Assembly (NCBI GenBank): GCA_029007035.1
Contig: JAQXHC010000005.1
Coordinates: 1-64,000, forward strand
DNA: 64,000 bases
Reading direction: 5' to 3'
Origin: Oscillospiraceae bacterium
GTDB lineage: Bacteria; Bacillota; Clostridia; Oscillospirales; Ruminococcaceae
In this document: positions 2,903 through 9,753 of the stretch, one piece after another
Layout: every line of letters begins with the position of its first letter
How positions within the stretch are numbered: the first letter of the stretch is position 1
Translations under genes and position numbers: made by a program
The notes under the pieces: generated by a model
Seen by the model: the letters and a program-made list of their open reading frames with translations, nothing else
Database searches by the model: none
Told to the model about the DNA's origin: nothing

Positions 2903-3313
2903 TTATTTAAATTTCTTCTGCGACAGCTTAAGGCGGTTTATTGCACGATTCAGTGCCGCCTGAGTGTGATAATACTCCATAATGCTCTGTTTTCCTCTGA
3001 GGAGCTCTTCGGCGCGCTGTCTTGCAGCTTCGGCGCGCTTTATGTCGATTTCCTCGGGAAGCTCGCAGTGGTCGGCGAGAATCACGGCAAATTCCGGCAT
3101 AACTTCCATGAAGCCCTCAGAAATTGCTGCATTGTGCCACTTGCCATTCACGCAGTATTTCAGCTCACCTGTGGGAAGCGATGTGACAAGAGCTTCGTGA
3201 CCCGGGAGAATTCCCAGCTGACCGTCAATTGCAGTGACCACAAGGTGCTCGCACTCGCCCTGATAGAACACTCTGTCGCTGGCGATTATATCAAGATGAA
3301 AGGTCTTTGCCAT
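2903..3313 (-). CDS. atpC: F1Fo ATP synthase epsilon subunit
   Basis: Small subunit of the F1 central stalk; regulates coupling and ATP hydrolysis. 136 residues, normal for the family. The N-terminal beta-sandwich is recognised from FHLDIIASDRVFYQGECEHL and the DGQLGILPGHEALVTSL segment; a two-helix C-terminal part follows and is rich in Arg/Ala/Glu (KRAEAARQRAEELLRGKQ). Start ATG at 3313 with GGAGGT upstream. Last gene of the operon, 15 nt after atpD and about 90 nt before the shared terminator. Confidence 0.95.
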   Translation of the reverse strand: MAKTFHLDIIASDRVFYQGECEHLVVTAIDGQLGILPGHEALVTSLPTGELKYCVNGKWHNAAISEGFMEVMPEFAVILADHCELPEEIDIKRAEAARQRAEELLRGKQSIMEYYHTQAALNRAINRLKLSQKKFK

Positions 3314-3328
3314 AACTGTACCTCCGCT

Positions 3329-4822
<1,494 letters not shown>

Positions 4823-5731
4823 TTACCCTCCGGAAACACCCTCGGCACCGCTGACGACCTCGGTGATTTCCTGAGTTATAGCAGCCTGCCTTGCACGGTT
4901 ATATACCAGTGACAGATCTTTTATCATATCCCTGGCGCTTGAAGTTGCAGCGTCCATTGCGGTCATTCTCGCCTGCTGCTCACAGCAGAAGGCTTCCACC
5001 ATCGCGCCGTAAATCAGTCCTTTGACATAGTTTGGGATAAGATAATCCATAACCTCTTTTGAGGACGGAACAAACTCGGCTTTGGGCAGCTTTTTCATTT
5101 TGCCGTCCTTGTCGAGACCGAAGTGGATTCGCTTGAAAGGCAGAATCTGAACGGTTTTCGGCTCAAATTCGCCTTTGCTGTCCATGGCGGTGTAGATGAG
5201 GTATACCTCGTCAAGCTCTTTTTTTACGAATTTATCGAGAATCAGCTCAGCAATGTCCCTTGCCCTGAAAAGAGTGGGATTCTGAGTTGTATACAGAAAC
5301 TCGCTGTCAATCGAAGAATGGTCAATATCGTTGTTACGATGCTGAAAATAGAGTCTGCCTACCTGACCGAGAATGTACATATAGCAGTTATTGTCAAACG
5401 CTTTTTTCAGCTCGACCTCGGTCTGTTTCAGGACGTTATGATTATAGCTTCCGCAGAGTCCCTTGTCGGCAGTTATGACGATATAGCCCTTTTTGCGCTT
5501 TTCTTCGGGAATCTCGGCGCGCTTGTTGAAATATCTCTGACGCGTTTCGGGAGTGTGGACGAGAATATCGCTCAGAGTCTCCTGAAGCTTATCAAAATAG
5601 GGAGTTGTGTCGTCAAGAGCCTTGCGCGCCTTTTTCAGCTTTGATGACGATATAAGATACATGGCGTTGGTGATTTTAAGGATCTGCTTAATACTTTCAA
5701 TACGCTCGCGTATTTCTCTGATATTTGGCAT
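4823..5731 (-). CDS. atpG: F1Fo ATP synthase gamma subunit
   Basis: Rotary shaft of F1. 302 residues, slightly longer than the usual 285-290. The N-terminal helix MPNIREIRERIESIKQILKI and the C-terminal helix ending RQAAITQEITEVVSGAEGV are the coiled-coil termini that insert into the alpha3beta3 ring. The central domain holds GYIVITADKGLCGSYN, the family signature. 13 nt downstream of the delta-alpha fusion gene; a 96-nt gap separates it from atpD. Confidence 0.96.
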   Translation of the reverse strand: MPNIREIRERIESIKQILKITNAMYLISSSKLKKARKALDDTTPYFDKLQETLSDILVHTPETRQRYFNKRAEIPEEKRKKGYIVITADKGLCGSYNHNVLKQTEVELKKAFDNNCYMYILGQVGRLYFQHRNNDIDHSSIDSEFLYTTQNPTLFRARDIAELILDKFVKKELDEVYLIYTAMDSKGEFEPKTVQILPFKRIHFGLDKDGKMKKLPKAEFVPSSKEVMDYLIPNYVKGLIYGAMVEAFCCEQQARMTAMDAATSSARDMIKDLSLVYNRARQAAITQEITEVVSGAEGVSGG

Positions 5732-5744
5732 ATACGCTCACCGC

Positions 5745-7772
5745 CTATTTCTTGAAATTCCTGATCACGATATCGAGTTTTTCGGCAAGCTCGTCGCTGA
5801 ACACCTTTTTGGTATCAATTTCCTCAAAGATTGCAGGCGAATAGGTCTTGATATAGCTCATAAGATCGCGGCAGAATTTCTTTACCTCCGTAACCGGAAC
5901 ATCCTTCAGATAGCCGTGTGAAACCACATACAGCAGCACGACCTCCTCATGATGAGAATACGGATTGTAAAGCGGCTGCTTAAGCAGCTCCATAAGCTTA
6001 TGACCATGGTCAAGCAGCTCGGCTGTAGACTGGTCAAGCTCCGAGGAGAACTGTGTGAATACCTCCATTTCCCTGAACTGGGCGAGGTCGATACGCAATG
6101 TTCCCGAAACCTTTTTCATTGCCTTCGTCTGAGCTGCGCCGCCTACACGGGATACCGAAAGTCCGACGTTAACCGCAGGTCTTACGCCCGAGAAAAACAG
6201 CTCGCTTTCAAGGAAGATCTGTCCGTCGGTTATAGAAATAACATTTGTCGGAATATAAGCCGAAACGTCGCCTGCAAGGGTCTCAATAATCGGCAAAGCC
6301 GTAATCGAACCGCCGCCGTGCTCGTCATCGAGACGGCTTGAACGCTCAAGAAGTCTTGAATGGAGATAGAAAACGTCGCCCGGATAAGCCTCACGTCCCG
6401 GAGGTCTGTGGAGAAGAAGCGACATTGCACGGTATGCAACCGCGTGCTTCGAAAGATCGTCATATACTATCAGAACGTCCCGACCCTTTGACATAAAGTA
6501 TTCAGCTATAGCCGTAGCTGAATAGGGCGCAATATACTGGAACGGTGCAGGCTCACTGGCAGAAGCCGAAACTACAACGGTGTAGTCCATGGCTCCGTAT
6601 TTGCGGAGATTTTCCACAACCTGTGCGACGGTCGAGGATTTCTGACCGATTGCCGCATAGATGCAGATAACGCCCTGCCCTTTCTGATTTATGATTGTAT
6701 CAATAGCGATAGAGGTTTTTCCCGTCTGACGGTCGCCGATGATAAGCTCACGCTGACCGCGTCCGATAGGGAACATCGAGTCAATGGCAAGAATACCTGT
6801 CTGAAGTGGAACGCTTACAGACTTACGGTCGGTTACACCGGGAGCTTCACGCTCAATGGGGAAATAGTCCTCCGCTGCAAATTCACCGAGTCCGTCAATA
6901 GGCGCACCAAGAGCGTCCACAACGCGTCCGAGCATTGCGTCACTTACGCCTATACCGGCACGCTTGCCTGTTCTTGTAACGGTTGAACCCTCGGTTAAAC
7001 CGTGGTCATCGCCGAGAAGAACAACACCCACCGATTTTTCTTCAAGATTCTGAACAATACCTCTGATTCCTGTTTCAAACTCGACAAGCTCGCCGTACAT
7101 TACGTTATTCATTCCGTAAACACGGGCAATTCCGTCGCCGAGGGTAATTATATAGCCTGTTTCCGTTGCTCCGGACTTTCTGTCGAAATCGTCGACTTCA
7201 CTTTTGAGGACAGATATGATATCGCTGTCACCGAAGCCGTGATTTCCGGAGGTTTCTTTATAATGAGCCGCCTTGTTCATAAGGCTCTCGCGCATCTGAC
7301 GGATTCCGGTGCGGTAGCTGCGGTCGTATTCGTAATCCCCTGCACTGAGTACAAATCCACCGATTATATCGGGGTCTTTTCTGTACTCGATTTCGACATG
7401 GACTTTGCCGAATTTCTTCATTATGAAATTTTCAAGCTCTTCCTGCTGTTTTCCGCTTAGGGGAGTAACATACCGCACGACAGCGCGTATGTTTCCAAGG
7501 CGCTCTATGCAGAGATTGATATACTCCGAAAGCACCTCGTCAAGAAGCTCGGCATTGTGCTCTTCACAGAGCTTATTCACAAACGGACGCAGTTCAATGG
7601 GAAAAAGCTCGTTTACGATATTCTGCTTTTCCTCTGCCGTGATCACCGGATTGCTCAGCGTCTGCGGAAGCTCTTCACAGGACGAAAGGACATACCTCGC
7701 CTCGCCCGCTGTTTCCTTAGCTATATTATGGCTTGTGAGGTAATTAAGATATTCCTTGATAACGTCGGTCAT
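5745..7772 (-). CDS. atpHA: Fused F1Fo ATP synthase delta-alpha subunit
   Basis: One uninterrupted 675-residue frame contains a whole delta (OSCP) subunit followed by a whole alpha subunit. Residues 1 to about 175 are delta: the C-terminal delta signature is visible in [20 protein letters not shown]. From about residue 182 (near base 7229) the alpha subunit runs to the end: [16 protein letters not shown], Walker A GDRQTGKT at 346-353, and [19 protein letters not shown]. The joining stretch is [18 protein letters not shown]. In-frame ATGs at residues 160 and 165 have no clear Shine-Dalgarno sequence. The start overlaps the atpF stop by 4 nt. In most bacteria atpH and atpA are separate genes. 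Both domains keep their key residues, so function is likely retained; a sequencing error at the junction cannot be excluded from one sequence. Confidence 0.9.
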
Positions 7773-8395
7773 TGCTCATTCGCTCCCTCCTGCGAAAGGA
7801 ATTCGTCGACAAGCTTTCTGTTCTTGGCGTCGTCCATATTTTCGCCGATAATTTTCGTCGCCGCAGCAATTGCGAGGTCGGCAATCTGTGCCTGTGCCTG
7901 CTGCATTGAACGCTTGCGCTCGTTTTCTATATTCTTGTTTGCCGTTTCGACGATTCTGTCCGCCTCGTCCTGTGACTGGCGGATTATATCCTGCTTTTCG
8001 GACGCAGCCTGCTCGTGGGCTTTCGCAAGTATCTGCTTAGCCTCGTCCTTCGCCTGCTGAATCGTACCCGCATACTGAGCTTTAAGCTCCTCCGCTTCCT
8101 CTCTGGCTTTCTTTGCACTGTCTATATCGTTTTGTATGGACGCTGTGCGCTCTTCCATCATCTTGTTAACCGGCTTGAACAGGAAAATTTTCAGCAGTAT
8201 AACAAGAAGCAGTATATTAACCACAGACCAGATTATATTCCATACGTTCACCGTAAGTATGCTCTGTTCCGATTCTCCGGTTGTTGCTGCGGCTGTCTCC
8301 GCCTCGGCAGAATCCGCGTCGGCAAGCTCGATACCTGCATCATCCGCGGCTTTCATAACCGACGCAAGTATTGCTCCCGATGAGAATATTTCCAT
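7769..8395 (-). CDS. atpF: F1Fo ATP synthase b subunit with long acidic N-terminal extension
   Basis: Peripheral-stalk subunit that ties Fo to F1 through delta. 208 residues against the usual 160-170. The single membrane helix is at about 49-70 ([20 protein letters not shown]), followed by a long charged helix typical of b. In front of it sits an unusual extension of about 45 residues rich in Ala, Asp and Glu. GGAGGTG about 9 nt upstream of the ATG at 8395 supports this start. The stop overlaps the start of the delta-alpha gene by 4 nt, so translation of the two stator parts is likely coupled. A 155-nt gap with a small hairpin (8527-8544) separates it from the c genes. Confidence 0.93.
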
Positions 8396-8550: not shown

Positions 8551-8772
8551 TTATTTCAGGAAAAGAATAATGAGCAAAGCGATTACGAATCCGTAAATAG
8601 CTGTAGCTTCCGCAAGGGCACATCCCAGAAGCAGCGCCTTGTTGATGTCGCCCTTTGCCTCTGGCTGACGAGCGATAGCCTCAGCCGCTTTTGAAGTAGC
8701 AATACCGATTCCGATTCCTGCGCCGATACCGGTCAGAACCGCGATACCTGCACCGATTGCAATAAGTCCCAT
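8551..8772 (-). CDS. atpE: F1Fo ATP synthase c subunit, copy 2
   Basis: Rotor-ring proteolipid of Fo, 73 residues, a two-helix hairpin. The polar loop is ARQPEAKGD and the ion-carrying carboxylate is Glu55 in GCALAEATAIYG. The protein is identical to the one encoded at 8800-9021. By eye, 27 of 222 bases differ, all silent. Compared with Na+-type c subunits such as Ilyobacter, the helix-1 Gln is Ile22 and the Ser after the Glu is Ala56, which argues for proton coupling (inference). Start ATG with AGGAGG-like sequence upstream; 27 nt after copy 1. Confidence 0.96.
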   Translation of the reverse strand: MGLIAIGAGIAVLTGIGAGIGIGIATSKAAEAIARQPEAKGDINKALLLGCALAEATAIYGFVIALLIILFLK

Positions 8773-8799: not shown

Positions 8800-9021
8800 T
8801 TATTTTAAGAAAAGGATAATAAGCAATGCTATAACGAAACCGTAAATAGCAGTAGCCTCCGCAAGGGCACAGCCCAGGAGCAGCGCCTTGTTTATATCGC
8901 CCTTGGCTTCGGGCTGACGTGCAATAGCCTCAGCAGCCTTTGAGGTTGCGATACCGATACCGATTCCCGCGCCGATACCGGTCAGAACCGCGATACCTGC
9001 GCCGATTGCAATAAGTCCCAT
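8800..9021 (-). CDS. atpE: F1Fo ATP synthase c subunit, copy 1
   Basis: First of two tandem c-subunit genes; 73 residues with the same sequence as the downstream copy. Two membrane helices (about 3-24 and 46-71) are joined by the RQPEAKGD loop; Glu55 is the ion-binding residue. Having two identical copies probably raises c-subunit output, as about ten or more are needed per rotor while other Fo subunits are needed once or twice. Located 17 nt after atpB. Confidence 0.96.
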   Translation of the reverse strand: MGLIAIGAGIAVLTGIGAGIGIGIATSKAAEAIARQPEAKGDINKALLLGCALAEATAIYGFVIALLIILFLK

Positions 9022-9038
9022 AATTAACCTCCATTAAG

Positions 9039-9719
9039 TTATTCCATTGCTTCCGACATAAACAGTGATGTAAGGAATACGAAAACGTATGCCTGGATCA
9101 GTCCGTCGAACACGTCGAAATAGAAGCTGAACACCAGCGGAATTCCCACAGGAACCAGCAGCTTTATAAGCTCCATAACTACAAATGCGCCGAGCACATT
9201 TCCGAAAAGTCGCATACAAAGCGACAGCGGACGTATAATAAGCTCCAGCAGGTTCATCGGGAGCATAAGTCCCATGGGTTCCTTGAAGCCTTTGAGCCAG
9301 CCGCCTACCCCTTTTTCCCTGATTCCGGATACCTGAACCAGAATGATGCTGATAAGCGCAAGCGAAAGCGTTACATTGAAGTCTTTCGTCGGCGGACGAA
9401 GACCGAACAGTCCGATGACGTTAGAAACGCCGATATAGATAATGAACGTTTCCAGTACCGGCAGATACTTCTTGCCCTTCGGGCCGAGAATATCAAGGAA
9501 AAAGCCGTTCAGCCAGTTTATGCCGATCTCAAGCAGGCACTGCGTTCCCGTCGGGACGGTTTTCATGTGCCTTACGAGTATTATCGAGGCGATTACAAGC
9601 ACCGCCATGATGACCCATGTCATAACGCAGGACTCCGGTACAGGAATTCCGCCGAAAATCGGGATTTCAAATGCAACCCGGCATTCAAGCTCCTCCATAA
9701 GCTTTTCGGCAAGGTCCAT
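9039..9719 (-). CDS. atpB: F1Fo ATP synthase a subunit
   Basis: Stator membrane subunit forming the ion half-channels. 226 residues from the ATG at 9719, preferred over an upstream TTG (9737) because AGAAGGTG lies in front of it. Multiple membrane helices; the essential arginine is in RPLSLCMRLFGNVLGAF, and IGLFGLRPPTKDFNVTLSLA is also typical. First gene of the operon; no atpI is seen upstream. The leader carries a terminator-like hairpin and a strong promoter. Confidence 0.95.
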   Translation of the reverse strand: MDLAEKLMEELECRVAFEIPIFGGIPVPESCVMTWVIMAVLVIASIILVRHMKTVPTGTQCLLEIGINWLNGFFLDILGPKGKKYLPVLETFIIYIGVSNVIGLFGLRPPTKDFNVTLSLALISIILVQVSGIREKGVGGWLKGFKEPMGLMLPMNLLELIIRPLSLCMRLFGNVLGAFVVMELIKLLVPVGIPLVFSFYFDVFDGLIQAYVFVFLTSLFMSEAME

Positions 9720-9753
9720 AAATACACCTTCTTTCAATGCTGTGATAATTCAA

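Follow-up and report, generated by a model that had tools for sequence, protein, structure and literature searches.

How many delta subunits, and how many peripheral stalks, does an F-type ATP synthase carry when delta and alpha are encoded as one protein? The F1 head contains three alpha subunits, whose N-termini carry a single delta on top. Textbooks treat one delta and a single peripheral stalk for each F1 as fixed, and differences in H+/ATP ratio are normally put down to c-ring size alone. In the 64,000-nucleotide stretch of DNA analysed here (the window), a single open frame runs through delta and alpha. Our analysis suggests that the Ruminococcus enzyme to which this gene belongs can carry several side stalks, which would change the number of protons moved per ATP.

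An ATP synthase operon with a delta-alpha fusion gene

The fusion gene and its neighbours all lie on the minus strand of the window:

5745..7772, minus strand: delta-alpha fusion gene, one frame of 675 codons plus stop, predicted product 74.8 kDa
7497..7772, minus strand: delta N-terminal domain, residues 1-92 (AF2 models; alignment with 10 separate deltas)
7278..7496, minus strand: delta C-terminal domain, residues 93-165 (Pfam OSCP at 23-164; PDB match)
7224..7277, minus strand: linker, residues about 166-183 (low pLDDT, variable)
5748..7223, minus strand: F-type alpha, residues 184-675, N-terminal helix first (TIGR00962 and three Pfam domains)
7783..7793, minus strand: Shine-Dalgarno sequence of the fusion gene, GCAGGAGGGAG (duplex energy -11.8)
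7769..8395, minus strand: atpF, stalk subunit b, 208 codons, start uncertain (Pfam ATP-synt_B at 54-183)
8551..8772, minus strand: atpE copy 2, ring subunit c (Pfam ATP-synt_C)
8800..9021, minus strand: atpE copy 1, ring subunit c (protein sequence identical to copy 2)
9039..9737, minus strand: atpB, subunit a, start codon uncertain (Pfam ATP-synt_A)
4823..5731, minus strand: atpG, subunit gamma (Pfam ATP-synt)
3329..4801, minus strand: atpD, subunit beta (TIGR01039 from residue 28)
2903..3313, minus strand: atpC, subunit epsilon (Pfam ATP-synt_DE_N and ATP-synt_DE)

Domain profiles confirmed the original prediction that a complete delta and a complete alpha share a single 675-codon frame. The fusion scores above the curated cut-off of PF00213 (ATP synthase delta/OSCP) with both delta domains present, and reaches 780.8 bits against a cut-off of 484.45 for the F-type alpha equivalog TIGR00962, with the Walker A motif DRQTGKT in place. 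One open frame stands where separate delta and alpha genes would have a stop and a start between them. The helix-1 motif YxxALF occurs in 0 of 33 Ruminococcus fusions and in 48 of 55 separate deltas, a motif that is a habit of the compared delta set and no formal criterion for PF00213. Membership of the N-ATPases, an alternate F1F0 type (TIGR03324), was rejected at 611.4 bits against a cut-off of 750.5.

The delta N-terminal domain is predicted by AF2 to form a six-helix bundle and is shorter than in most of the 10 separate deltas aligned, while residues 170-193 have pLDDT below 50 and are predicted to be disordered. Among 60 sequences the linker measures 11-20 residues between the chosen anchors; it is rich in S, E, A, G and K, and its mean column identity is 0.40, compared with 0.89 in the N-terminal helix of alpha. 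In the AF2 model of the whole chain (mean pLDDT 61.7, pTM 0.40), the alpha body is predicted too poorly for the alpha N-helix to be placed on delta.

The operon has a single b gene and a single a gene, as is usual. The start of the fusion gene overlaps the atpF stop in the sequence ATGA, and directly after the fusion atpG has a strong Shine-Dalgarno sequence of its own (-10.7). In the window, the b frame extends about 40 residues further ahead of its Pfam domain than in the genus members L034, L035 and L037, where the frame is 166-173 residues long, and the true atpF start may be internal. The listed TTG start of atpD probably lies too far upstream.

Conservation of the fusion in Ruminococcus

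The delta-alpha fusion is a real, genus-wide trait of the gut bacterium Ruminococcus, the genus being taken in the sense of R. flavefaciens; this agrees with the family Ruminococcaceae named in the original prediction. A search of related genomes, which had been proposed as a check on the fusion, found the frame intact in 31 of the 35 further Ruminococcus genomes compared, in a collection that includes many draft bins. In G033 the frame spans the junction and is broken later inside alpha, G016 has separate genes instead, and the incomplete genomes G017 and G022 gave matches to distant ATPases only. Two of the 32 genomes with a fusion across the junction (G021 and G034) have a second, separate operon too. 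A scan of named genomes, in which 80 loci were kept of 121 relatives, showed fusion across the junction at all 80: 77 were classed by script and two on inspection (L128 and L135), and the frame of L141 breaks later inside alpha. Seventy-five of the 80 loci are titled Ruminococcus, the others Alistipes (L124 and L196), Bacillota (L148), Clostridia (L159) and Oscillospiraceae (L160). Cultured strains with the fusion include FD-1, 007c, ATCC 19208 and MC2020; two of the loci, L129 and L131, are contigs of R. flavefaciens FD-1 that encode the same protein over the 660 residues compared. A sequencing or assembly error that deleted the stop between two normal genes has a negligible chance of explaining these data, being refuted by the counts in both samples, cultured strains included, and by linkers that differ in length and are all in frame, and we found no point in its support.

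Fused architectures across the phylum

Fusion of delta is more widespread than the genus. A search of 297 genomes of the order with the OSCP profile placed delta within a frame of 588-784 residues in at least 28. A fused-junction profile served to count genomes whose fused frame runs uninterrupted for 570 residues or longer; there were at least 12 among 118 genomes in the family, at least 26 among 293 in the class and at least 21 among 398 in the phylum. These four samples share genomes with one another, and those of family, class and phylum each include the window's own genome. We annotated 121 loci and eight more, setting six types by hand and telling alpha from beta frames by motif, since the alpha profile also matches beta; a few of these loci repeat one operon. 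Four architectures recur: separate genes; full-length delta-alpha; a fusion that lacks the delta N-domain (delta-CTD-alpha); and b-delta-CTD-alpha beside a separate b gene.

Full-length delta-alpha fusions were found in Ruminococcus and at L085, L086/L087, L088, L205, L221/L222 and L250, as well as in all four genomes examined of genus g526 (family f172), in which six genomes have a 679-residue frame. The b-delta-CTD-alpha chain, 737-784 residues long, occurs at 10 of the 121 loci (L042, L043, L090, L091, L096, L097, L099, L100, L102 and L219) and at L249. Eight of the 10 genomes with this form that were searched show no other F-type alpha, which would give them three membrane-anchored half-stalks per F1 by construction. 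Seven genomes (G255, G687, G749, G761, G766, G810 and G819) have both fused and separate F-type operons, the locus pairs being L223 with L225, L219 with L226, L221 with L227, L205 with L228, L222 with L229, L224 with L230 and L231 with L232; L231 was classed as fused by hand, and two operons in one genome may sometimes reflect mis-binning.

On an alpha tree of 117 rows, made by a quick method without bootstraps and with some long branches, the starred branches require a minimum of four switches between the fused and the separate state, and likewise a minimum of four between a delta that has the N-domain and one that lacks it, figures that count change and not gain. The ten b-delta-CTD-alpha rows form one group (SH-aLRT 100).

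Other arrangements were also seen. At L044, L110, L111, L112 and L113, all that is left of delta is an unfused C-domain of 73-77 residues, encoded upstream of an alpha gene that is itself separate; L093 has a b-delta-CTD fusion and a separate alpha, L092 two delta C-domains before alpha, and L114 a delta with an extra C-domain.

Possible sources of free alpha and delta

The original prediction held that such a fusion gives three deltas per F1 unless the chain is cleaved, an internal start makes free alpha, or the stator is rearranged. This puzzle is real. A search of the window's own genome (87% complete) found no F-type alpha or delta besides the fusion gene, its one OSCP and its one F-type alpha both lying within that gene, and a second gene that supplies free subunits was accordingly rejected. 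Among 14 other fused genomes, a second, separate alpha (E 1e-60 or better) was present only in G819 and G120; the full-length-fusion genomes G687, G761 and G810 have a second, separate operon. On contig C27 of the window's own genome there are two further rotary-ATPase-like frames, L002 and L004, of 473 and 598 residues, with 31% and 26% identity to parts of the fusion alpha; they are probably V/A-type B and A subunits.

Internal initiation would yield two free alphas per fused chain and restore one delta per F1. We scored ATG, GTG and TTG codons against a single anti-Shine-Dalgarno tail; for the fusion junctions, the separate alphas and the start of the fusion gene itself, the value given is the best of several. 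At the junction just one in-frame start codon is conserved, in 31 of 33 genus fusions. It encodes a Met in the final helix of delta, and its duplex energies run from about -5 to +1 and are mostly near 0, whereas gamma starts score -8.5 to -13.3 at the 25 of 33 genus loci where the motif found gamma. Across lineages, we took as a threshold a score of -8.5 or lower within 45 codons before alpha. It is reached by 52 of 63 separate alphas but by only 1 of 11 full-length fusions (four of the 11 being from Ruminococcus), and in that one, L085, the start lies inside delta. Gamma starts in fused operons reach -8.5 or lower at 43 of 56. Junction starts at four loci of genus g526 score -5.9 to -7.6, the threshold is reached by 2 of 10 b-delta-CTD-alpha fusions, and the full-length fusions L086, L088 and L250, like the loci L040, L217 and L233, have no ATG, GTG or TTG at all within this 45-codon stretch. 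What speaks for internal initiation is that ATG160 and ATG165 are in frame in the window gene, that L023, alone among the 33 genus sequences, carries a GTG scoring -10.1, and that elsewhere 10 of 31 delta-CTD-alpha fusions and L251 (ATG, -8.9), alone among the eight later-annotated loci, have a start at the threshold.

Two sets of controls indicate that a needed internal start would be visible. In L235, the nearest separate-gene relative, the delta stop, the Shine-Dalgarno sequence GGAGGTGA and the alpha ATG are all in place before an alpha N-helix very similar to that of the fusion. The second set comes from read-through frames of gamma and beta, which should not work as fused proteins because gamma turns inside the F1 head; in two of them, L093 and L101, an in-frame start before beta scores -12.3 and -13.4, and to judge from these signals beta is probably made separately. 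(Gamma and beta share one open frame of 776 residues at L093, 649 at L101, where there is also a frame break in beta, and 802 at L251.) No such start is visible at the Ruminococcus junction, and the signals present in L235 are gone. The earlier claim of no internal ribosome binding site at the junction therefore stands, given the strong sites at nearby true starts and in the gamma-beta controls; the start scores disfavour internal initiation as a way out, and we consider it very improbable. A junction without a ribosome binding site, together with the lack of another F-type alpha or delta gene in the genome as searched, suggests that each alpha probably carries a delta.

Alternatively, a protease could cut the linker to give ordinary free delta and alpha, with the surplus delta being degraded. 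The linker is long enough for this, is predicted to be disordered and is rich in S, E, A, G and K, but its variability in sequence and length leaves no conserved site visible, two of every three deltas would be wasted, and the more constrained delta C-domain described below would be left unexplained. Cleavage, another way out in the original prediction, may occur, but it found no support in the sequence and we regard it as improbable.

Comparison with known enzymes

The closest counterpart in the PDB is an engineered one. Ueno and colleagues (PMC12229609) removed the delta N-domain of Bacillus PS3 and joined the C-domain to alpha. The resulting enzyme had a mean of about two stalks and two a-subunits, cryo-EM showed as many as three, and the H+/ATP ratio was 5.8 versus 3.0. 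According to these authors the N-domain, which lies on the three-fold axis, restricts stalks to one, and Acidaminococcus fermentans and the UniProt entries G4Q3K6 and A0A1I2C5T3 are given as natural counterparts; these share with the window gene a natural delta and alpha in one frame and, by that account, lack the N-domain. A delta-alpha fusion without the N-domain is thus already in print. In the open literature, searched by title and abstract start and with most subscription papers outside its scope, we found neither a full-length delta-alpha fusion nor an account of fixation in Ruminococcus or of the b-delta-alpha form; a search on R. flavefaciens, ATP synthase and proteomics, judged by title, returned nothing about this enzyme.

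The best PDB match of residues 93-286 of the window fusion is the engineered chain 9jc1_I, which is present in three copies in its entry, and residues 93-166 align to its residues 2-75. Among the 23 PDB sequences listed for residues 1-287, the 9jc1 chain is the sole match across the junction. This agrees with the original prediction in placing the junction where delta and the alpha N-terminus can join. Both proteins have the delta C-domain joined in frame to the alpha N-terminus, but the engineered one (delta-DeltaN-alpha) is man-made, has a short linker and lacks the N-domain, whereas Ruminococcus keeps it. Thus, the window gene may work like the delta-DeltaN-alpha multi-stalk FoF1, yet it is not a member of that class because its predicted six-helix N-domain is kept.

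Other comparisons come from enzymes whose subunits are arranged differently. In the Chloroflexus aurantiacus 9itj series, mean chain counts per entry are 3 for alpha and 2 for delta (6 entries) and 4 for b and 2 for a (18 entries). Judged from these counts and the titles, an F-type enzyme that naturally has several deltas and stalks seems to have been deposited in the PDB. Its delta is a separate chain of 157 residues, and our search of the open literature found no paper on it. In mycobacteria, delta is likewise fused into another stator subunit (PDB 7jg5_d, a single chain in each entry), but there the partner is b and no conflict of stoichiometry arises. V-type ATPases have three peripheral stalks, according to PMC6131620, and so several stators per head, as the b-delta-CTD-alpha relatives would; their stalk subunits are E and G, whereas the genes here are F-type.

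Constraint on the delta domains

As a measure of constraint, we divided delta-domain distance by alpha distance in leaf-disjoint pairs, close pairs having an alpha distance of 0.05-0.35 and distant pairs 0.2-0.6. The values for the C-domain are given below with numbers of pairs in brackets and p for comparison with separate deltas (Mann-Whitney for close pairs); pairs from one lineage are not independent, and a slight bias may be present because a motif set the limits of the C-domain in Ruminococcus and the profile end set them in the other groups.

Separate deltas: close 5.39 (24); distant 4.36 (28)
Ruminococcus fusions: close 2.25 (16), p 2e-7; distant 1.89 (4), p 6e-5
delta-CTD-alpha: close 2.92 (7), p 9e-4; distant 3.41 (14), p 4e-4
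b-delta-CTD-alpha: close 1.85 (3), p 7e-4; distant 1.85 (5), p 8e-6
Other full-length fusions: close 2.74 (2); distant 3.39 (3), p 0.02
Free, unfused C-domain deltas: close 2.44 (1); distant 3.78 (2)

In close pairs, the C-domain of fused deltas evolves relative to alpha at about a third to half of the usual rate. The effect is weaker in distant pairs, as seen for delta-CTD-alpha, and this, together with the single close pair of free C-domains, means that the constraint may not stem from the fusion. The C-domain is the part of delta that meets b, and its constraint is what would be expected if every alpha relied on a functional C-domain attached to it. Cis contact that brings no additional stalk could also constrain it, and so could losing the N-domain.

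The N-domain behaves differently. Its distance relative to alpha is 6.1 in Ruminococcus versus 6.05 in separate deltas (p 0.40), and the ratio of N-domain to C-domain is 2.9 versus 1.1, a high ratio that arises because the C-domain is slower and not because the N-domain is faster. We do not infer decay of the retained N-domain, its rate relative to alpha being unchanged and six helices still being predicted. In one pair of other full-length fusions, the N-domain/C-domain ratio was 1.40 and the C-domain/alpha ratio 2.5.

Number of deltas and stalks per F1

We consider the best reading of these results, at slightly better than an even chance, to be three deltas per F1 with a capacity for more than one stalk; this corresponds to the rearranged stator among the ways out in the original prediction. 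One 75-kDa delta-alpha chain would be made and stay whole and, the searches having turned up no further gene for F-type alpha or delta, every alpha in the head would come with a delta attached. The delta C-domain would sit on the N-terminal helix of its own alpha via the loose linker, like the engineered Bacillus PS3 fusion, so that F1 would offer three docking sites for b2 stalks and not one. There would be room for no more than one of the three N-domains on the central axis, and the C-domains could bind more than one b2. Some complexes at least would then hold more than one stalk and a-subunit per enzyme, which would raise the H+/ATP ratio, a likely benefit for an anaerobe whose proton gradient is weak. 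In favour of this reading, the fusion is fixed in the genus, and the engineered fusion and the Chloroflexus chain counts point to a multi-stalk precedent. The fusion with its conservation, the lack of start signals at the junction, the failure to find a second gene and the constraint on the C-domain come from the sequences themselves; an uncut chain, three deltas per F1, extra stalks and an altered H+/ATP ratio are inferred from them. The chief objection to more than one stalk is the retained N-domain, whose rate relative to alpha is no higher than that of separate deltas; the usual single b and a genes of the operon also count against the reading.

The retained N-domain underlies a rival model with three deltas and one stalk, in which only the delta whose N-domain is axial binds b2 and the other two are passengers. 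A kept N-domain that is predicted to be folded fits this model, as do the ordinary single a and b genes in the operon and the rule, stated in PMC12229609, that an axial N-domain limits stalks to one. However, idle copies would not need the more constrained C-domain that is seen in each fused group, subject to the caveats from distant pairs and free C-domains, and deltas without the N-domain are common among other fusions. We therefore judge a single stalk with two passenger deltas to be rather unlikely.

Wider implications

More broadly, we propose, tentatively and at somewhat less than an even chance, that the phylum repeatedly turned its F-type ATP synthase multi-stator by joining stalk parts to alpha. 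In such a multi-stator series, the full delta-alpha of Ruminococcus would be one grade and b-delta-CTD-alpha the extreme. More protons per ATP would then amount to a heritable gear change, and genomes with fused and normal operons would look as if they kept two gears; both the low proton gradient in anaerobes and the two gears in dual-operon genomes enter here as suppositions.

Because Ruminococcus keeps the very domain said to forbid extra stalks, its enzyme tests that rule, and with the fusion fixed in a genus that has long-cultured strains, the question of a natural multi-stalk F-type enzyme becomes directly testable. The recurring series of separate genes, full fusion, fusion without the N-domain and b-delta-alpha provides natural replicates.

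A minor observation concerns the c-ring genes. The tandem atpE copies of the window encode the same 73-residue protein, yet 27 of their 222 bases differ, which indicates that the c protein is held constant; two c genes are also present in L034 and L037.
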